Assembly (NCBI RefSeq): GCF_014695715.1
Contig: NZ_JACJOT010000018.1
Coordinates: 1 to 64,000, forward strand
DNA from: Microcoleus sp. FACHB-68
Lineage (GTDB): Bacteria; Cyanobacteriota; Cyanobacteriia; Cyanobacteriales; Oscillatoriaceae
Reading direction: 5' to 3'
DNA: 64,000 nt
Shown piece by piece: positions 50,342 through 57,098 of this stretch. The notes below the pieces were generated by a model, which was not told the origin of the DNA, searched no databases, and saw only the letters and a list, made by a program, of their open reading frames with translations. Position 1 is the stretch's first letter. Each line of letters opens with the position of its first letter. A program made the position numbers and the translations under genes.

Positions 50342-50494
50342 ATGAATGAACAGCGTTTGCAAGCCTACAACGCTCTGATCTACACCTTGCTAAATTCTGA
50401 GAGTGGCGAGAAAGAGGCTATATTGAACGCCCAGCTAGAGTTGCTGGATGCGGAGTTGGGGAAGTTGATGCAAGTTTCGGCGATAAGGAGATAA
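50342..50494 (+). pseudogene. detached N-terminal segment of the CHAT protein (frameshifted)
   Basis: 50-residue frame beginning MNEQRLQAYNALIYTLLN and ending LGKLMQVSAIRR. Many cyanobacterial TPR-CHAT proteins start with just such a segment (xNEQRxQAYxxLIxxLL ... LLDAxLxxxM) continuous with a GDxxxxxWLRxxATQL stretch. Here the second half is in another frame: translating the frame of the next gene upstream of its ATG gives SFGDKEIRMELFNWLRDVATQL. So one gene appears split near 50475-50485, either by a real indel, a sequencing error, or as two cistrons. No ribosome site is evident at 50342. Confidence 0.6.
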
Positions 50495-50496
50495 GA

Positions 50497-53400
50497 ATGG
50501 AATTATTTAATTGGTTGAGAGATGTGGCCACGCAATTGGGTGATTTTGTGGCGTCGCAACTAGAGGCGCAAATTTATCTTAATTTTTTAATCGAGGTGTT
50601 GGAAGCCATTAGCGATAGTAATGACAATCCCCAAACTGTCTATCCAATTTTACAGCAAAATATAGATAAACTTAACGAGAATTTCGCTCAATTTTTGCGG
50701 AATTGGGCCTCTGAAGTATTATCGCTAAATTCAGATACCACACAATCTATTGCCTCAAATATTGGTAATTTCAGTAATTTGGTACAGCAGTTTCCGCAGG
50801 GTAGTATTGCAGCTAACTACGAAATTGCTATTGCCGGTTATGAGAGTATCCAAGCAGTTTTCACCCGCCGTAAATCCCCCAAAGATTGGGCACTGGCTCA
50901 AAATAATTTAGCAACTGCTTACCGTGACAGAATTCGGGGAGATCGGGGGGAGAATTTAGAACAAGCGATTGCCGCTTATCAGGCAGCTTTAACGGTTCGC
51001 ACACAGTCGGCATTTCCCCAAGAGTGGGCAGACACTCAAAATAGTTTGGCAATTGCTTACGGTGACAGAATTCGGGGGGATCGAGAGGAGAATTTAGAAT
51101 TCGCGATTGCCGCTTATCAGGCAGCTTTAACGGTTCGCACACAGTCGGCATTTCCCCAAGATTGGGCAATGATTCAAAATAATTTGGCACTTGCTTACCG
51201 TAACAGAATTCGGGGGGATCGAGAGGAGAATTTAGAATTCGCGATTGCCGCTTATCAGGCAGCTTTAACGGTTCGCACACAGTCGGCATTTCCCGAAAAG
51301 TGGGCAATGATTCAAAATAATTTGGCCAGTGCTTACCGTAACAGAATTCGGGGGGATCGAGAGGAGAATTTAGAATTCGCGATTGCCGCTTCTCAGGCGG
51401 CTTTAACGGTTCGCACACAGTCGGCATTTCCCCAAGAGTGGGCAGCCACTCAAAATAGTTTGGCAAATGCTTACACGGAGAGAATTCGGGGAGATCGGGG
51501 GGAGAATTTAGAATTCGCGATTGCCGCTTATCAGGCGGCTTTAACGGTTCGCACACAGTCGGCATTTCCCCAAGATTGGGCAATGACTCAAAATAATTTG
51601 GCACTTGCTTACCGTCACAGAATTCGAGGGGATCGGGGGGAGAATTTAGAACAAGCGATTGCCGCTTGTGAGGCGGCTTTTACGGTTTATACTCCCAGCG
51701 CCTATCCGATTGATTGCCTAAGAACAGGGCGAAATTTGGGCATCCTTGGCTTAAGAGAAAATTTATGGGACAAAGCAATATTTGGTTATGATGCTGCCAT
51801 CCAGGCCGTGGAACAAAGCCTGGAATGGGTGACATCAGAGAAGCGCAAGCGAGAACTTCGAGAAAGCGCCCTTGATGTGTATGAGGATATGGTGAGAGTC
51901 TGCATCAATGACAAACAGATGGATCGCGCTGTGGAAACCGTTGAACGCAGTAAATCTCGCCAATTGGTGGAACTTCTAGCCAATGCCGATCTCTACCCCA
52001 AAAACGCACCGGCAAAACAGAAACAGCAGCTAAGGGAACTGCGTAATCGGCTTGCCTCCATTAGCTGGCTGCTGGAAGAAACCGCAACAGAAACCCCCAC
52101 CCCAAAAAAGGATACCAGTGGGGATTTGGCAGACACTCAGCGCACCGGCAGCGCGTCTAACCTCAGTCGCGACTATCTTGAAATGCAGAAACAACAGTTG
52201 CAAGCAGCGCGGCAGCAGCTAAACCAACTCCTTGACGAAATAAAACAACAAGATCCAGAATTTACCCTCACCCAGCGCGTCGAACCCATCAGCTTTGCCG
52301 GCATCCGTACCTTAATTAACTCGGAAACAGCGATCCTCGACTGGTACATCGGCACCTCTGGCTTTTACGCCTTCATCATCACCCAAAACACCCTAGACGT
52401 AGTGGAATTCAGTAAGCCAGAATTGCAGCAGCTAGAAGCTTGGGCAAACACCTATTTAAACGACTACCGGCAGACAAATCGGCAAGACAACCTCAGTAGC
52501 AGACTTGCCTCCCTCTCCCAAATATTGCGCCTTGATGAAATTGTTGCCAAAATTCCCCCAAGCTGCAAGGAATTGATTTTAATTCCCCACCGTACCCTGC
52601 ATTTATTGCCGCTTCATGCGTGCGAAGTCTCAAGCAGCCGGTGTGTGGATTTAGAAATTTCTCCTTGCCGGTTAATTGACTGCTTCCCTGCCGGCATCCG
52701 TTACGCGCCTAGCTGCCAATTGCTGCAACTCGTGCAACGCAGAATTCAAGAATCTGCCGGCATCCCTCAGCCAACAGAAAATCTCTTACTCAACCGCTTC
52801 CTATTTGCGATTCAAAATCCCACCCAAGACCTGCATTATACTGATGTTGAAGTAGAAACCATTCAACGGGATTTTGCACCCCCTCCAGACACACAAATTT
52901 TGCTTAAAGAAGCAGCGACAAAATCCGCCCTCACGCAAAACTTACCCGCGCTTCGCAAAGCCGAATACGCCCATTTCTCTTGTCACGGTGCGTTTAACTT
53001 CGAGTTTCCTTTGCTTTCGTCGTTAATTCTGGCAGATTCTTTACATCTTGCGGATACGCCGCAACCGCCAACCCCTGAAAAAGATAAGCGACAACTAACC
53101 TTAAGAAATGGAAGAAAAGCCAATCCAGAAAAAAGCCTAACCCTGCAAGAAATTTTTGCTTCAGTCGATCTGCCGGTGTGCCGGTTGGTGACACTTTCCG
53201 CCTGCGAAACCGGCTTGACAGATGCCACAAAACTCGTTGATGAGTATATCGGTTTACCCAGCGGCTTCCTCTATGCCGGTAGCCTGAGTGTCGTCAGCAG
53301 TCTTTGGTCTGTTAATGACTTTGCCACTACCATTTTAATGATTAAATTTTATGAGGAGTTACGAACCGAGTCAAATATCTCACTTGCCCTGAAAAACGCC

Positions 53401-53580
53401 CAATATTGGATGAGAACAATCTCTAGCAAAAAAATTATCGAATGGATGAAAAATGACTTAAAATTAGATAAAAAATCTTCTGAAAAGATACAGCTTGGGC
53501 TATTAGTAGAGCTAGGCGATAAACCTTTGCCTTTTAGCGATCCTCAATACTGGGCGGCTTTCTGTGCTATTGGCAAATAA
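50497..53580 (+). CDS. TPR repeat CHAT-domain (caspase-like) protein
   Basis: 1027 residues. The N-terminal helical part (about 1-125) is followed by six 46-residue TPR-like repeats (about 129-404, WAxxQNNLAxAYxxRIRGDR, AIAAYQAALTVRTQSAFP), further TPR-like helices (about 405-500), a coiled-coil segment near 560-590 (QKQQLQAARQQLNQLLDEI), and a C-terminal CHAT protease domain (about 640-1027). The catalytic dyad is present: His830 in HFSCHG and Cys903 in LSACETGL. CHAT proteins are caspase/separase-fold cysteine proteases used in bacterial conflict and cell-death systems. Two genes follow on the same strand (gaps of 40 and 14 bases), indicating an operon. The target and trigger are unknown. 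Its own N-terminal segment seems detached by a frameshift. Confidence 0.87.
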   Translation: MELFNWLRDVATQLGDFVASQLEAQIYLNFLIEVLEAISDSNDNPQTVYPILQQNIDKLNENFAQFLRNWASEVLSLNSDTTQSIASNIGNFSNLVQQFPQGSIAANYEIAIAGYESIQAVFTRRKSPKDWALAQNNLATAYRDRIRGDRGENLEQAIAAYQAALTVRTQSAFPQEWADTQNSLAIAYGDRIRGDREENLEFAIAAYQAALTVRTQSAFPQDWAMIQNNLALAYRNRIRGDREENLEFAIAAYQAALTVRTQSAFPEKWAMIQNNLASAYRNRIRGDREENLEFAIAASQAALTVRTQSAFPQEWAATQNSLANAYTERIRGDRGENLEFAIAAYQAALTVRTQSAFPQDWAMTQNNLALAYRHRIRGDRGENLEQAIAACEAAFTVYTPSAYPIDCLRTGRNLGILGLRENLWDKAIFGYDAAIQAVEQSLEWVTSEKRKRELRESALDVYEDMVRVCINDKQMDRAVETVERSKSRQLVELLANADLYPKNAPAKQKQQLRELRNRLASISWLLEETATETPTPKKDTSGDLADTQRTGSASNLSRDYLEMQKQQLQAARQQLNQLLDEIKQQDPEFTLTQRVEPISFAGIRTLINSETAILDWYIGTSGFYAFIITQNTLDVVEFSKPELQQLEAWANTYLNDYRQTNRQDNLSSRLASLSQILRLDEIVAKIPPSCKELILIPHRTLHLLPLHACEVSSSRCVDLEISPCRLIDCFPAGIRYAPSCQLLQLVQRRIQESAGIPQPTENLLLNRFLFAIQNPTQDLHYTDVEVETIQRDFAPPPDTQILLKEAATKSALTQNLPALRKAEYAHFSCHGAFNFEFPLLSSLILADSLHLADTPQPPTPEKDKRQLTLRNGRKANPEKSLTLQEIFASVDLPVCRLVTLSACETGLTDATKLVDEYIGLPSGFLYAGSLSVVSSLWSVNDFATTILMIKFYEELRTESNISLALKNAQYWMRTISSKKIIEWMKNDLKLDKKSSEKIQLGLLVELGDKPLPFSDPQYWAAFCAIGK
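50881..51708 (+). repeat. six tandem 138-base repeats coding TPR-like units
   Basis: Units begin at 50881, 51019, 51157, 51295, 51433 and 51571 with an exact 138-base (46-codon) period. Long runs such as GCGATTGCCGCTTATCAGGC and GGTTCGCACACAGTCGGCAT are the same in nearly all units, so homogenisation or recent expansion is likely and copy number may vary between strains. Confidence 0.9.
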
Positions 53581-53620
53581 GTAAATTTTAATCGAATCCT
53601 CAAACCTGGAGAGTAACTTA

Positions 53621-53962
53621 ATGGAACCCACCAAAGTCATTGCTGAATTTCAAGACTGGCTGCAAAACTATCCTGAATACTTTCTACCCACAGCTTGGCA
53701 AGACTTGCCTCAACTTGATGAAAGCCTTGCCGAATCAGACGACGAAGAGTTGTTTCCCATCGCCATGACAATCAGTAAATGGTGTGCCCAACACGGGCTT
53801 GGAGAAAAGCTCAGAGAGAAGCTAAGTAAAAACAGAAAAGATATTGATGATCCGCCGGCAATGGATAACACGTTCACAGAAATTGAAAATATCACTCAAA
53901 CCCTACGTCAAAGTGTCCAAATTCGATATGAACAATTGAAGAAGAAAGCTCAAGACCAATAA
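53621..53962 (+). CDS. small protein of a CHAT-linked operon, unknown function
   Basis: 113 residues, acidic N-terminal half (WLQNYPEYFLPTAWQDLPQLDESLAESDDEELFPIAM, shown here only as composition: Asp/Glu rich) and a helical C-terminal half ending QIRYEQLKKKAQDQ. No signal peptide, membrane segment or catalytic motif is visible. GGAGAG precedes the ATG. Its size and position between a TPR-CHAT protease and a two-helix membrane protein match the small accessory member of what I recall being called CATRA (caspase/TPR-repeat-associated) conflict systems. That match is from memory and context, not from a motif I can prove. It may be an adaptor joining the other two. Confidence 0.7.
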   Translation: MEPTKVIAEFQDWLQNYPEYFLPTAWQDLPQLDESLAESDDEELFPIAMTISKWCAQHGLGEKLREKLSKNRKDIDDPPAMDNTFTEIENITQTLRQSVQIRYEQLKKKAQDQ

Positions 53963-53976
53963 AAGCAGCAATAAAA

Positions 53977-55614
53977 ATGTTTGATAAAGTTTATGCGCCT
54001 AACGTCCACTTGTTTGCTTTTCACGCTCATAAAGTTCTAGCCGGTGATGCAAACTCAAATGAAGGAAATATAAATTATTTATGGGACAAATGTAACAGAA
54101 TATTAACCGCTTTAGGAGTCAATAAGAAATTTAATCGAGAAAATTTAACCAGTTATCAGAAAAGCGAACCACCCGGAACGCGAATAGATTTAATTGTCCC
54201 AGAAAAAGTAGGCAATCGGCGCTCTCTCCCTTTCGAGAAAACCATTCAACAAGGAAATGTCAAAATACCCATTAAAGGATTTGCTTTACCTAAACGCATT
54301 AGCGATAGTTACGCCCTTGGCTTGAATATTCGCGTTCCTGAAAAAGAGGCTGGACAAAAAACTGAGCCGGTTGACATTTCGATTTTTAAACAATTTAACC
54401 CAAGTAATTGTTTATTTAACCCAAATCATTATTCCTTGCCTCTCGATCCGAACCTAAATTTCTTAGGACAAACCATTCTGATTACTATCACCCTTACTGA
54501 CGAGCAAAACGAAGCCGCAGCAAAAACAGACAGCAACTTTCTTAAAAACTTAGCCGATAAGTGCCTAGAAAGTCTAATCCAATGCCCTCTTAAAACTCCC
54601 ACTTTTTCAGGTGAAGGAAAATTATTTGGCAGTCCGATTTTTGAATACGGCAGTCTCAGCCAAATTGAAGATTCTTGGCATATCCTCATCTGGTTATTCA
54701 CTAATCCTACAACCAGTGAAAGATTATTTGACTGCTATAATGATTTGCTAGAGCTGCTATTGTACCGTAACAAGATACTTCATACCTATCACGAACGCGA
54801 TAAAATTTATTATGTAACTCGTGATGAATATGAACAAATTGAACAAATAATTAACGAGACTTTTGAAAACCTAAATAAAGAAAAGTCTTATCCTCAGAGA
54901 TTAAGCCAAAACGTTCTGCAAAAACTCAACACCCAGCTCATGCAGATGCCAACTAAAGCTGTGGAATACGCTAGATTGCTGAGAGACATAGAAATCCGGC
55001 AGCACACCTTAAACATTAACACTCAAAATTATAAGGATAAAGTTAGCAAAATTAGAACCTACCTCAAGTCAAAATCAGACCCATTAGATTTAAAATTTTT
55101 AGAAACTTTCAGTAAAGAAACCTGTGTAACTTTTCAAAAGCAAATTACCGCCGACTTAGGCTATTTTCAGCATGGCTCTGGCTTACTCGACACAGCCATT
55201 AATTCGATCAGAGGCATGGTAGACATCGAAGAAGCCCAACGAGATCGAGACTTACAAGTTACTGTTCAAGCATTAGGTTTTGGCTTGGCTACAGCAGGAG
55301 TGGTGGCAACAAGCATCCCCTACTTAATCAAAGCCGAACCAGAAAACTATCCGATAAGATTGCCATTTACCACAAGGGCAATTAATTTTCCTACAAGCGA
55401 AATTCATCCTTTCTCGCTAGTTCTTTTAATGAGCTTAGGTGCCGGCTTATTAGGTGCCCGCTTAGGGGTGTGGGCAGTCGTTTCAGGAGTCATGAATCTA
55501 AAGAGAATCGTTGCTAGCGTGCGGAAATTAGTCGGTTTTCAGCCTAAGCTTCCCCCCAAACAAGACAAACCCAATTCACCAGATAAAGACAAAGATCCCG
55601 AACTGCCGGCATAA
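53977..55614 (+). CDS. membrane-anchored partner of the CHAT operon, unknown function
   Basis: 545 residues. The N-terminal ~250 residues (VYAPNVHLFAFHAHKVL, PPGTRIDLIVPEKV, SLPLDPNLNFLGQTILITITL) look like a mixed alpha/beta globular domain. About 250-425 is helical (FDCYNDLLELLLYRNKIL, then a long Gln/Lys/Glu-rich segment). Two hydrophobic helices follow at about 430-450 and 480-506, and a charged tail (KLPPKQDKPNSPDKDKD) ends the protein. It is cytoplasmic with a membrane hairpin near the C-terminus, as in sensor or pore-type partners of CHAT/caspase systems. No known catalytic motif was recognised. It starts 14 bases after the 113-residue gene and is last in the operon, followed by a strong terminator. 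Confidence 0.75.
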   Translation: MFDKVYAPNVHLFAFHAHKVLAGDANSNEGNINYLWDKCNRILTALGVNKKFNRENLTSYQKSEPPGTRIDLIVPEKVGNRRSLPFEKTIQQGNVKIPIKGFALPKRISDSYALGLNIRVPEKEAGQKTEPVDISIFKQFNPSNCLFNPNHYSLPLDPNLNFLGQTILITITLTDEQNEAAAKTDSNFLKNLADKCLESLIQCPLKTPTFSGEGKLFGSPIFEYGSLSQIEDSWHILIWLFTNPTTSERLFDCYNDLLELLLYRNKILHTYHERDKIYYVTRDEYEQIEQIINETFENLNKEKSYPQRLSQNVLQKLNTQLMQMPTKAVEYARLLRDIEIRQHTLNINTQNYKDKVSKIRTYLKSKSDPLDLKFLETFSKETCVTFQKQITADLGYFQHGSGLLDTAINSIRGMVDIEEAQRDRDLQVTVQALGFGLATAGVVATSIPYLIKAEPENYPIRLPFTTRAINFPTSEIHPFSLVLLMSLGAGLLGARLGVWAVVSGVMNLKRIVASVRKLVGFQPKLPPKQDKPNSPDKDKDPELPA

Positions 55615-55615
55615 A

Positions 55616-55665
55616 AAATAGCTTGCCTCTCACAGAAAACCTAAGAAGCAAGCTATTTCTTTTTC
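55616..55665. terminator. bidirectional rho-independent terminator
   Basis: AAATAGCTTGC (55616-55626) and GCAAGCTATTT (55648-55658) form a perfect 11-base stem, with CTTTTTC after it on the plus strand and an A-run before it that serves the minus strand. It separates the CHAT operon from convergent pntB. Confidence 0.85.
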
Positions 55666-55688
55666 GTACAAATTACCGGCTTGTTGCC

Positions 55689-57098
55689 TTACAGGTGCTT
55701 CACTTCAGAGACCAACTTAGCAACCGCATCTTTCGCGCTGCCAAATAGCATCATCGTCTTTTCCTTGTAAAACAGCTCATTCTCAATGCCGGCAAAGCCA
55801 GCACTCATGCCGCGCTTAATCACAATCGTATGCTTTGCCTTATCCACTTCCAAGATAGGCATCCCATAGATCGGACTGCCGGCATCGTGACGCGCCGCCG
55901 GGTTCACCACATCATTCGCCCCAATTACCAGCGCCACATCTGTCTCATCAAACTGGGGATTGATGTCATCCATATCATAAAGCTGCGGATAAGGCACATT
56001 CGCCTCAGCCAGCAACACGTTCATGTGTCCCGGCATCCGACCGGCAACGGGGTGAATCGCATACTTCACTTCCACACCCAGCCGTTCCAACTGATCGGCC
56101 AATTCCCGAACCGTGTGCTGTGCCTGGGCAACTGCCATCCCATATCCGGGTACAATCACCACAGATCGGGCATAGCCCAACATCATCGCCGCTTCTTCCG
56201 GATCGACGCTGCGAACCGTCTTGTCACCAACAGCGCCGGCTGCGTCACCGCCAGCAGCAGCCGAACCGCCTCCACCAAATGCACCAAATAGCACACTTGT
56301 CAAGGAACGGTTCATTGCCTTACACATAATCTGGGTGAGGATTAATCCCGACGCGCCAACCAGCGCACCGGCAATGATCAACATATTGTTCATCACGATA
56401 AAGCCGGCCACACTTGCCGCAACCCCTGAATAAGAGTTGAGCAGCGAAATCACCACCGGCATATCGCCCCCACCAATCGGCAGGACAAACATCACACCCA
56501 GCACTAGCGAAACCGCAGTCAGTCCCAGCAACACCGTAGTATTAGCCGGTGTCACACACAGATAAACACTGCCGGCAAGTAACGCCACCAACAGCAAGGC
56601 ATTCACAGGTTGCTGCAACGGAAACGTAATCGGCGCACCCTTAAGGATGCCTTGCAATTTTGCAAACGCAATCAAACTGCCGGTGAAGGTAATTCCGCCG
56701 ATCAACACGCCCAAAATAATCGTGATGTTGGCATCAAGCGGCACCACATCAGAATGACTGCTGACGCGCCAGTATTCCCCAACCGCCACCAAAGCCGAAG
56801 CCGCGCCGCCCAAACCGTTCAACACGCCCACCATCTGGGGCATATCCGTCATCGCCACGCTCTTGGCCATGATCACGCCTAAAATCGAACCGATGATGAT
56901 TCCAACCAGAATCATCTCGTAGTTCAACACTGAGCGTTCTAGCAGGGTTCCGACGATCGCGATCAACATCCCAACGGCTGCCAGCACATTGCCCTGACGC
57001 GCCGTTGCCGGTGAACCCAACTGCTTCAAACCAACAATAAATAAAGATGCTGCAACTAAATAGCTCAGCTGAATGCCTGAGGGTAGAAAATCGCTCAT
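55689..57098 (-). CDS. pntB: NAD(P) transhydrogenase subunit beta
   Basis: 469 residues. The first ~280 are a bundle of about nine hydrophobic helices (domain II part). The C-terminal ~170 residues are the NADP(H)-binding domain III (VIVPGYGMAVAQAQHTV, HPVAGRMPGHMNVLLAEA, GANDVVNPAA, DKAKHTIVIKRGM). It forms, with the two alpha genes, the proton-translocating Re/Si-specific transhydrogenase that balances NADPH and NADH. Its ATG overlaps the stop of the upstream gene by four bases (ATGA), indicating translational coupling. Confidence 0.94.
   Translation of the reverse strand: MSDFLPSGIQLSYLVAASLFIVGLKQLGSPATARQGNVLAAVGMLIAIVGTLLERSVLNYEMILVGIIIGSILGVIMAKSVAMTDMPQMVGVLNGLGGAASALVAVGEYWRVSSHSDVVPLDANITIILGVLIGGITFTGSLIAFAKLQGILKGAPITFPLQQPVNALLLVALLAGSVYLCVTPANTTVLLGLTAVSLVLGVMFVLPIGGGDMPVVISLLNSYSGVAASVAGFIVMNNMLIIAGALVGASGLILTQIMCKAMNRSLTSVLFGAFGGGGSAAAGGDAAGAVGDKTVRSVDPEEAAMMLGYARSVVIVPGYGMAVAQAQHTVRELADQLERLGVEVKYAIHPVAGRMPGHMNVLLAEANVPYPQLYDMDDINPQFDETDVALVIGANDVVNPAARHDAGSPIYGMPILEVDKAKHTIVIKRGMSAGFAGIENELFYKEKTMMLFGSAKDAVAKLVSEVKHL

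Follow-up and report, generated by a model that had tools for sequence, protein, structure and literature searches.

We begin with a question raised by one locus of the cyanobacterium Microcoleus sp. FACHB-68, where a caspase-related protease of the CHAT family is encoded on one strand with a small acidic protein and a larger protein that carries a hydrophobic hairpin: what are the two partners doing beside the protease? To our knowledge, the targets of CHAT proteins are largely open. The locus occupies positions 50342 to 55614 of the 64,000-nucleotide stretch analysed here (assembly GCF_014695715.1, contig NZ_JACJOT010000018.1, positions 1-64,000, forward strand), which we call the window, and the 545-residue product of its last open reading frame (ORF) is labelled BIG in what follows. 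The locus is real, conserved and specifically paired, and it is unnamed in the libraries searched. BIG, which persists through a change of protease family, is a specific candidate for the substrate or the output of such a protease, and the question of what caspase relatives do becomes testable with one set of proteins.

The protease is a protein of 1027 residues (50497-53580, + strand, as are all features of the locus) that matches the Pfam CHAT model PF12770 with an E-value of 4.8e-44, at 151.4 bits against a curated cut-off of 24. The domain extends over residues 684-1026 (52546-53574) and holds the catalytic residues His830 (codon 52984-52986) and Cys903 (codon 53203-53205), which are assigned from the sequence and from an alignment of CHAT ORFs. 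In that alignment of 108 ORFs, in which some loci are present twice, the catalytic His is kept in 106 (two gaps) and the Cys in 103 (five gaps). Upstream of the domain lies a tandem array of TPR type (50878-51687), made of 5.9 copies of a 138-bp (46-codon) unit at 89% matching and recognised as TPR_10 (E 2.9e-6). The CHAT protein with TPR repeats and an intact His830/Cys903 dyad that the first-pass annotation had read from this DNA is thereby borne out by the Pfam matches and by the residues themselves, and the domain score together with the dyad makes the protein a CHAT peptidase, with predicted proteolytic activity. A search of solved structures with the CHAT protein returned none at E-values up to 0.001.

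Do the three genes stay together in other genomes? Relatives of BIG occur in at least 216 of the 388 genomes sampled from the order, a lower bound because at most three first-look candidates per genome were scored. Among the best 80 of 180 BIG relatives on named contigs, all cyanobacterial by title, 57 have at least 4.5 kb of upstream sequence and can be evaluated; 46 of them carry the small gene and CHAT immediately upstream of BIG, 1 the small gene alone and 10 neither. Since this set favours close relatives, a wider census of the phylum was made. A profile search that scored at most nine candidates per genome finds BIG in 24 of 175 genomes, with up to 10 matching stretches in a genome, and all listed places except one 78-codon fragment yield 68 loci, of which 63 have a full-length BIG (at least 380 residues). 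A same-strand CHAT gene is found upstream within 2.6 kb in 50 of the 63, a Peptidase_C14 caspase in 4 and neither in 9; that is, a caspase-fold protease adjoins BIG in 54 of 63 full-length copies. The gene between CHAT and BIG belongs to the small family in 34 of the 50 CHAT-linked loci and is another ORF of 115-157 residues in 13, while of the remaining three loci, two carry the small domain fused to CHAT and the third is L250. As for the nine copies with no protease, L229 and L247 lie where their contigs end, while L282 and L283 are weak matches to the family. The neighbourhood conservation that the first-pass annotation had left to be checked is thus present in other cyanobacteria, in the same gene order, and the three-gene set is a conserved cyanobacterial module beyond chance.

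The two large proteins also diversify together. Distances between CHAT domains and distances between BIG proteins correlate with r of 0.69 (48 loci from 21 genomes), compared with a mean of 0.32 when the CHAT partners are shuffled within each genome, and none of 2000 such shuffles reaches 0.69. Because the observed value lies above all within-genome shuffles, the CHAT-BIG pairs are specific and not merely inherited with the host. CHAT and BIG co-diversify.

A second line of evidence comes from loci in which the protease has been exchanged. L119 of the same genome and L222, carried by a Microchaete diplosiphon plasmid, each pair BIG with a companion of roughly 160 residues, and a Peptidase_C14-nSTAND1-WD40 protein faces the two from the opposite strand. 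A Peptidase_C14 protein takes this divergent position in L271 and L276 as well, and in L259 one lies on the same strand, 2.2 kb upstream. The five aligned C14 proteins all retain their His and Cys motifs. In a tree of 63 BIG proteins (58 from the census, with five census rows omitted, and 5 from plasmids), the five C14-linked BIGs form one clade (support 98/91) whose nearest relatives are CHAT-linked; the root was set at the midpoint, which leaves the order of the two proteases undecided. Since the C14-linked clade lies among CHAT-linked BIGs, the tree indicates that the protease family partnering BIG has changed while BIG and its small companion stayed. The replacement of CHAT by a C14 protein that retains both motifs suggests that a caspase-fold protease is functionally needed in the system. 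The companions themselves can be followed by hhalign in two steps, from those of C14-linked BIGs to those of divergent CHAT-linked BIGs (97%) and from the latter to the small family of the window (84-85%). The plasmid record of L222 labels a 233-residue WD40 ORF as a caspase subunit and its neighbour as a pentapeptide protein, although it is this neighbour that Pfam identifies as the caspase-nSTAND1 protein.

We turn to the small protein (53621-53962; 113 residues, computed isoelectric point 4.5), which has relatives in 49 of the 388 sampled genomes of the order and evolves faster than BIG. CHAT carries its domain as a C-terminal fusion in L266 and, with a weak match (i-Evalue 3.4e-6, just three proteins being searched), in L249; in L161 the domain is fused to the C-terminus of BIG. 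These fusions to either large partner favour the role of an adaptor over that of a substrate for the small protein, and suggest a bridge between CHAT and BIG. L161, from Scytonema, lines up a separate small gene, the BIG-small fusion and a further BIG. Solitary small genes are seen in L107, L108, L120 and L121, with no match to CHAT or BIG in the 12-16 kb fetched around them. A search of solved structures gave helical proteins for the small protein, the best at an E-value of 0.033, with no confident relative among them. One of 58 small-protein members matched EAD8 (E 0.018, among the best 25 of 52 families listed). A direct hhalign comparison, with an EAD8 profile built from 12 of 28 EAD8 matches (of the rest, one was left untried and the others gave no open frame at the offset assumed), gave a probability of 0.62% against 0.06-0.30% for ten shuffled controls and one reversed; this value, above all 11 controls and yet negligible, leaves an EAD or Death-like origin doubtful.

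In BIG itself (53977-55614), two hydrophobic segments lie towards the C-terminus, at about residues 425-453 (55249-55335) and 474-508 (55396-55500), and are predicted to form a two-helix hairpin. At least two such segments are present in 60 of the 63 BIG proteins, one in 2 and none in 1, and the C-terminal hydrophobic hairpin is a trait of the family. Conserved columns fall in the soluble body and in the stretch that directly precedes the hairpin. Solved structures offer weak coiled-coil matches (best E 0.044) and no confident relative. Model matches in the family are weak and scattered: Sec2p in one member (2.7e-4) and T3SSipB in one (0.0055), with all 15 families at E-values up to 0.02 listed, and, from the best 25 of 31 families, BdpA in one member (1.5e-4) and NheC in 3 of 37 (best 0.0071). 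All four were set aside as relatives, being scattered weak matches in one to three members. Neither partner in the window gives a match of weight in Pfam, NCBIfam or PADLOC, in keeping with the earlier remark that neither shows a known catalytic motif. Solitary BIG genes of 478 codons occur as L084 in the same genome and as L085 and L086 in two congeners, with no CHAT or small match within 13-14 kb; the one in the same genome follows a RecR-like Toprim ORF.

The set is also found on mobile elements. BIG relatives are present in 13 plasmid records, all cyanobacterial, and CHAT lies beside BIG in four of the five viewed (Nostoc, Planktothrix, Tolypothrix and Pseudanabaena), the fifth being L222. 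The Nostoc plasmid is typed as conjugative and its locus sits between transposase genes. On the Pseudanabaena plasmid (L223) the order is changed to small, BIG and two CHAT genes. The annotation of the viewed plasmid records calls both partners hypothetical proteins. Phage records contain no relative, nor do viral contigs, where 42 pattern matches gave none, and this absence bears on a role in defence neither way. At the same site and with the same neighbours, two congeneric genomes (L087 and L088) have CHAT in fragments, no BIG match and an intact small ORF. The ratio of nonsynonymous to synonymous substitution rates (dN/dS) of that small gene is 0.17 and 0.32 relative to the window and 0.26 between the two congeners, values that rest on about 65 synonymous sites. 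The decay fits the loss of a costly function, and it leaves room for an inhibitor-like or a separate role of the small protein.

Combining these observations, we read the set as a sensor-protease, adaptor and membrane-effector system, of which the window holds one copy of a widespread cyanobacterial type, and we give this reading a probability of about 0.55. The TPR repeats would sense a signal and switch on the caspase-fold CHAT protease, the small protein would link the protease to BIG by contact with both, and BIG, with its C-terminal hairpin lodged in the membrane, would be the output controlled by proteolytic cleavage. BIG would most likely be an effector that acts on, and damages, the membrane and so arrests or kills the cell in a conflict with phages or other mobile elements. 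Such a mode of working would be like that of the caspase-gasdermin or Craspase pairs, with an effector family that is undescribed. We propose more tentatively, and at somewhat less than even odds, that the family is a new and widespread class of immunity system, in which either a TPR-CHAT or a C14-nSTAND1-WD40 protein drives a constant membrane-hairpin effector through a small adaptor, a gasdermin-like death switch made from a protein that is not a gasdermin. If BIG is indeed an effector, programmed cell death in bacteria may gain a further family of membrane effectors.

Several observations weigh against this reading. Sequence searches recognise no known effector fold in BIG, and PADLOC-DB 2.0.0 has no family for the four proteins of the window locus at E-values up to 1. 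The surroundings are not an obvious defence island, the neighbouring genes being PutA-, Uma2- and transhydrogenase-like as judged from their ORFs. No caspase-fold protease is nearby in 10 of 57 evaluable named loci and 9 of 63 census copies, and in only 25 of 48 cases do CHAT and BIG have their nearest foreign relatives in one and the same locus. The companions of C14-linked BIGs have no direct match to the small family of the window (hhalign 2%). The apparent constraint on the small gene after the loss of CHAT and BIG is unexpected for a pure adaptor.

What else could such a set be? BIG may be a membrane anchor or receptor platform that, with the small adaptor, holds the protease at the membrane, the true substrate being encoded elsewhere. 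The conserved columns in the soluble body and before the hairpin would suit an anchor, as would the persistence of BIG and its companion together through the change of protease family; the tight co-diversification with the CHAT domain, however, is not obviously needed by an anchor alone, and we regard this alternative as possible and rather unlikely. A little less probable still is an arrangement like a toxin-antitoxin pair, with the small protein as the inhibitor of a toxic BIG or a toxic active protease. The congeners that kept an intact small ORF at low dN/dS beside a fragmented CHAT gene and no BIG would suit it, and the stand-alone small genes (L107, L108, L120 and L121) point the same way. 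However, the decay may be recent and the synonymous sites are few, and fusions of the small domain with CHAT or with BIG in some loci argue that it is not simply a releasable inhibitor.

Two further explanations find less room. Many of the named hosts of BIG relatives belong to filamentous genera, and the genome of 6.5 Mb has 35 CHAT matches. HetF is a CHAT protein of a filamentous cyanobacterium in the part of PMC8406250 consulted, so that a developmental or division role as for HetF could be imagined. The patchy distribution (24 of 175 phylum genomes), the paralogs, the carriage on plasmids and the loss in congeners fit a core process badly, however, and make this role improbable. The same abundance of CHAT genes could bring one beside BIG by chance. 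A same-strand CHAT within 1.6 kb is expected for about 0.4% of genes, whereas three of the six BIG copies of the genome have one (P about 1.6e-6), and the linkage in 50 of 63 census copies and 46 of 57 named loci, with a pairing above the shuffles, leaves a chance neighbourhood hardly credible.

How does the proposed sensor, adaptor and effector system compare with those already described? Bacterial gasdermin operons place caspase-like proteases beside a membrane-acting gasdermin, and the likeness to the locus is a caspase-fold protease next to a partner proposed to act on membranes. BIG differs in its hydrophobic hairpin, and by sequence it gives no weighty match in solved structures or in Pfam, whose coverage of bacterial gasdermins was not checked. 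In the part of PMC10028731 consulted, the TPR-CHAT protein Csx29 cleaves its operon partner Csx30 once, which provides a precedent for the protease step. The locus resembles this type III-E (Craspase) system in encoding a TPR-CHAT protease beside a larger partner, and differs in that its CHAT protein scores 38 bits on the NCBIfam Csx29 model against a cut-off of 300. The gene for Cas7-11 is larger than the CHAT ORF of 1027 codons, which is the longest ORF in 44-61 kb, so no gene of that size is present; the hydrophobic hairpin of BIG is a further difference.

CATRA systems, a name that the first-pass annotation expanded as caspase/TPR-repeat-associated and to which it assigned the set as a possibility, are ternary, caspase-dependent conflict systems in the sections of PMC8195603 consulted, and the set as read here would be alike in both respects. 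The assignment finds no support in the Pfam CATRA models, which match none of the window proteins at E-values up to 5 and none of 37 BIG members at up to 0.02; nor does a further scan of family members, with 25 of 38 families listed, speak for it. The CATRA-C model PF20270 matches nothing in the same genome and none of four Streptomyces plasmids; in the phylum sample it has no match over the cut-off and three below it among 292, a negative limited by control genomes that are likewise without match and by its reach, which is that of Pfam models and not of a profile-profile comparison with a true CATRA protein. CATRA identity was set aside on this comparison of models. The EACC1/EACC2-caspase and VMAP systems, as portions of PMC7159879 and PMC8195603 describe them, occur in bacteria of multicellular habit and combine a caspase-fold peptidase and exchangeable domains, with a membrane component in the EACC1 systems. 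To that extent they are a precedent for caspase-fold proteases with membrane parts, which the locus is also predicted to have. They differ in that EACC1 has a single conserved transmembrane helix, according to the same portions, against the two-helix hairpin of BIG, and a kinship of the small protein with EAD8 is doubtful. Among the papers listed in literature searches, no title or start of an abstract describes the triad, and Burroughs and Aravind 2020, the source for CATRA, may hold a description.

Finally, we consider the two ends of the locus. The set that the first-pass annotation began at 50342 is itself present from 50497 to 55614; position 50342 opens a separate ORF of 50 codons (50342-50494) in a frame other than that of CHAT, and its product is similar to the beginning of TPR-CHAT proteins that are made in one piece. 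Of 30 such N-terminal elements in the named loci, 23 are inside a CHAT ORF and 2 are stand-alone ORFs of fewer than 80 residues; stand-alone forms are seen in L117 of the same genome and in L082, L087, L160 and L187. The split of the element from CHAT may be a frameshift or a real two-gene arrangement. An AAGGAG stretch precedes the CHAT start. At the other end, a terminator-like hairpin (55616-55658) has an 11-bp outer stem followed by the T-rich tail CUUUUUC. A consensus terminator scan does not list it, perhaps because the scan allows only loops of 3-8. The region 55610-55690 folds at -20.4 kcal/mol (z -4.05), with none of 200 shuffles equally stable, and the one-strand set of CHAT, 113-residue and 545-residue genes closed by a strong terminator, as first described, agrees with the ORFs on the + strand and with this stable hairpin and its tail.

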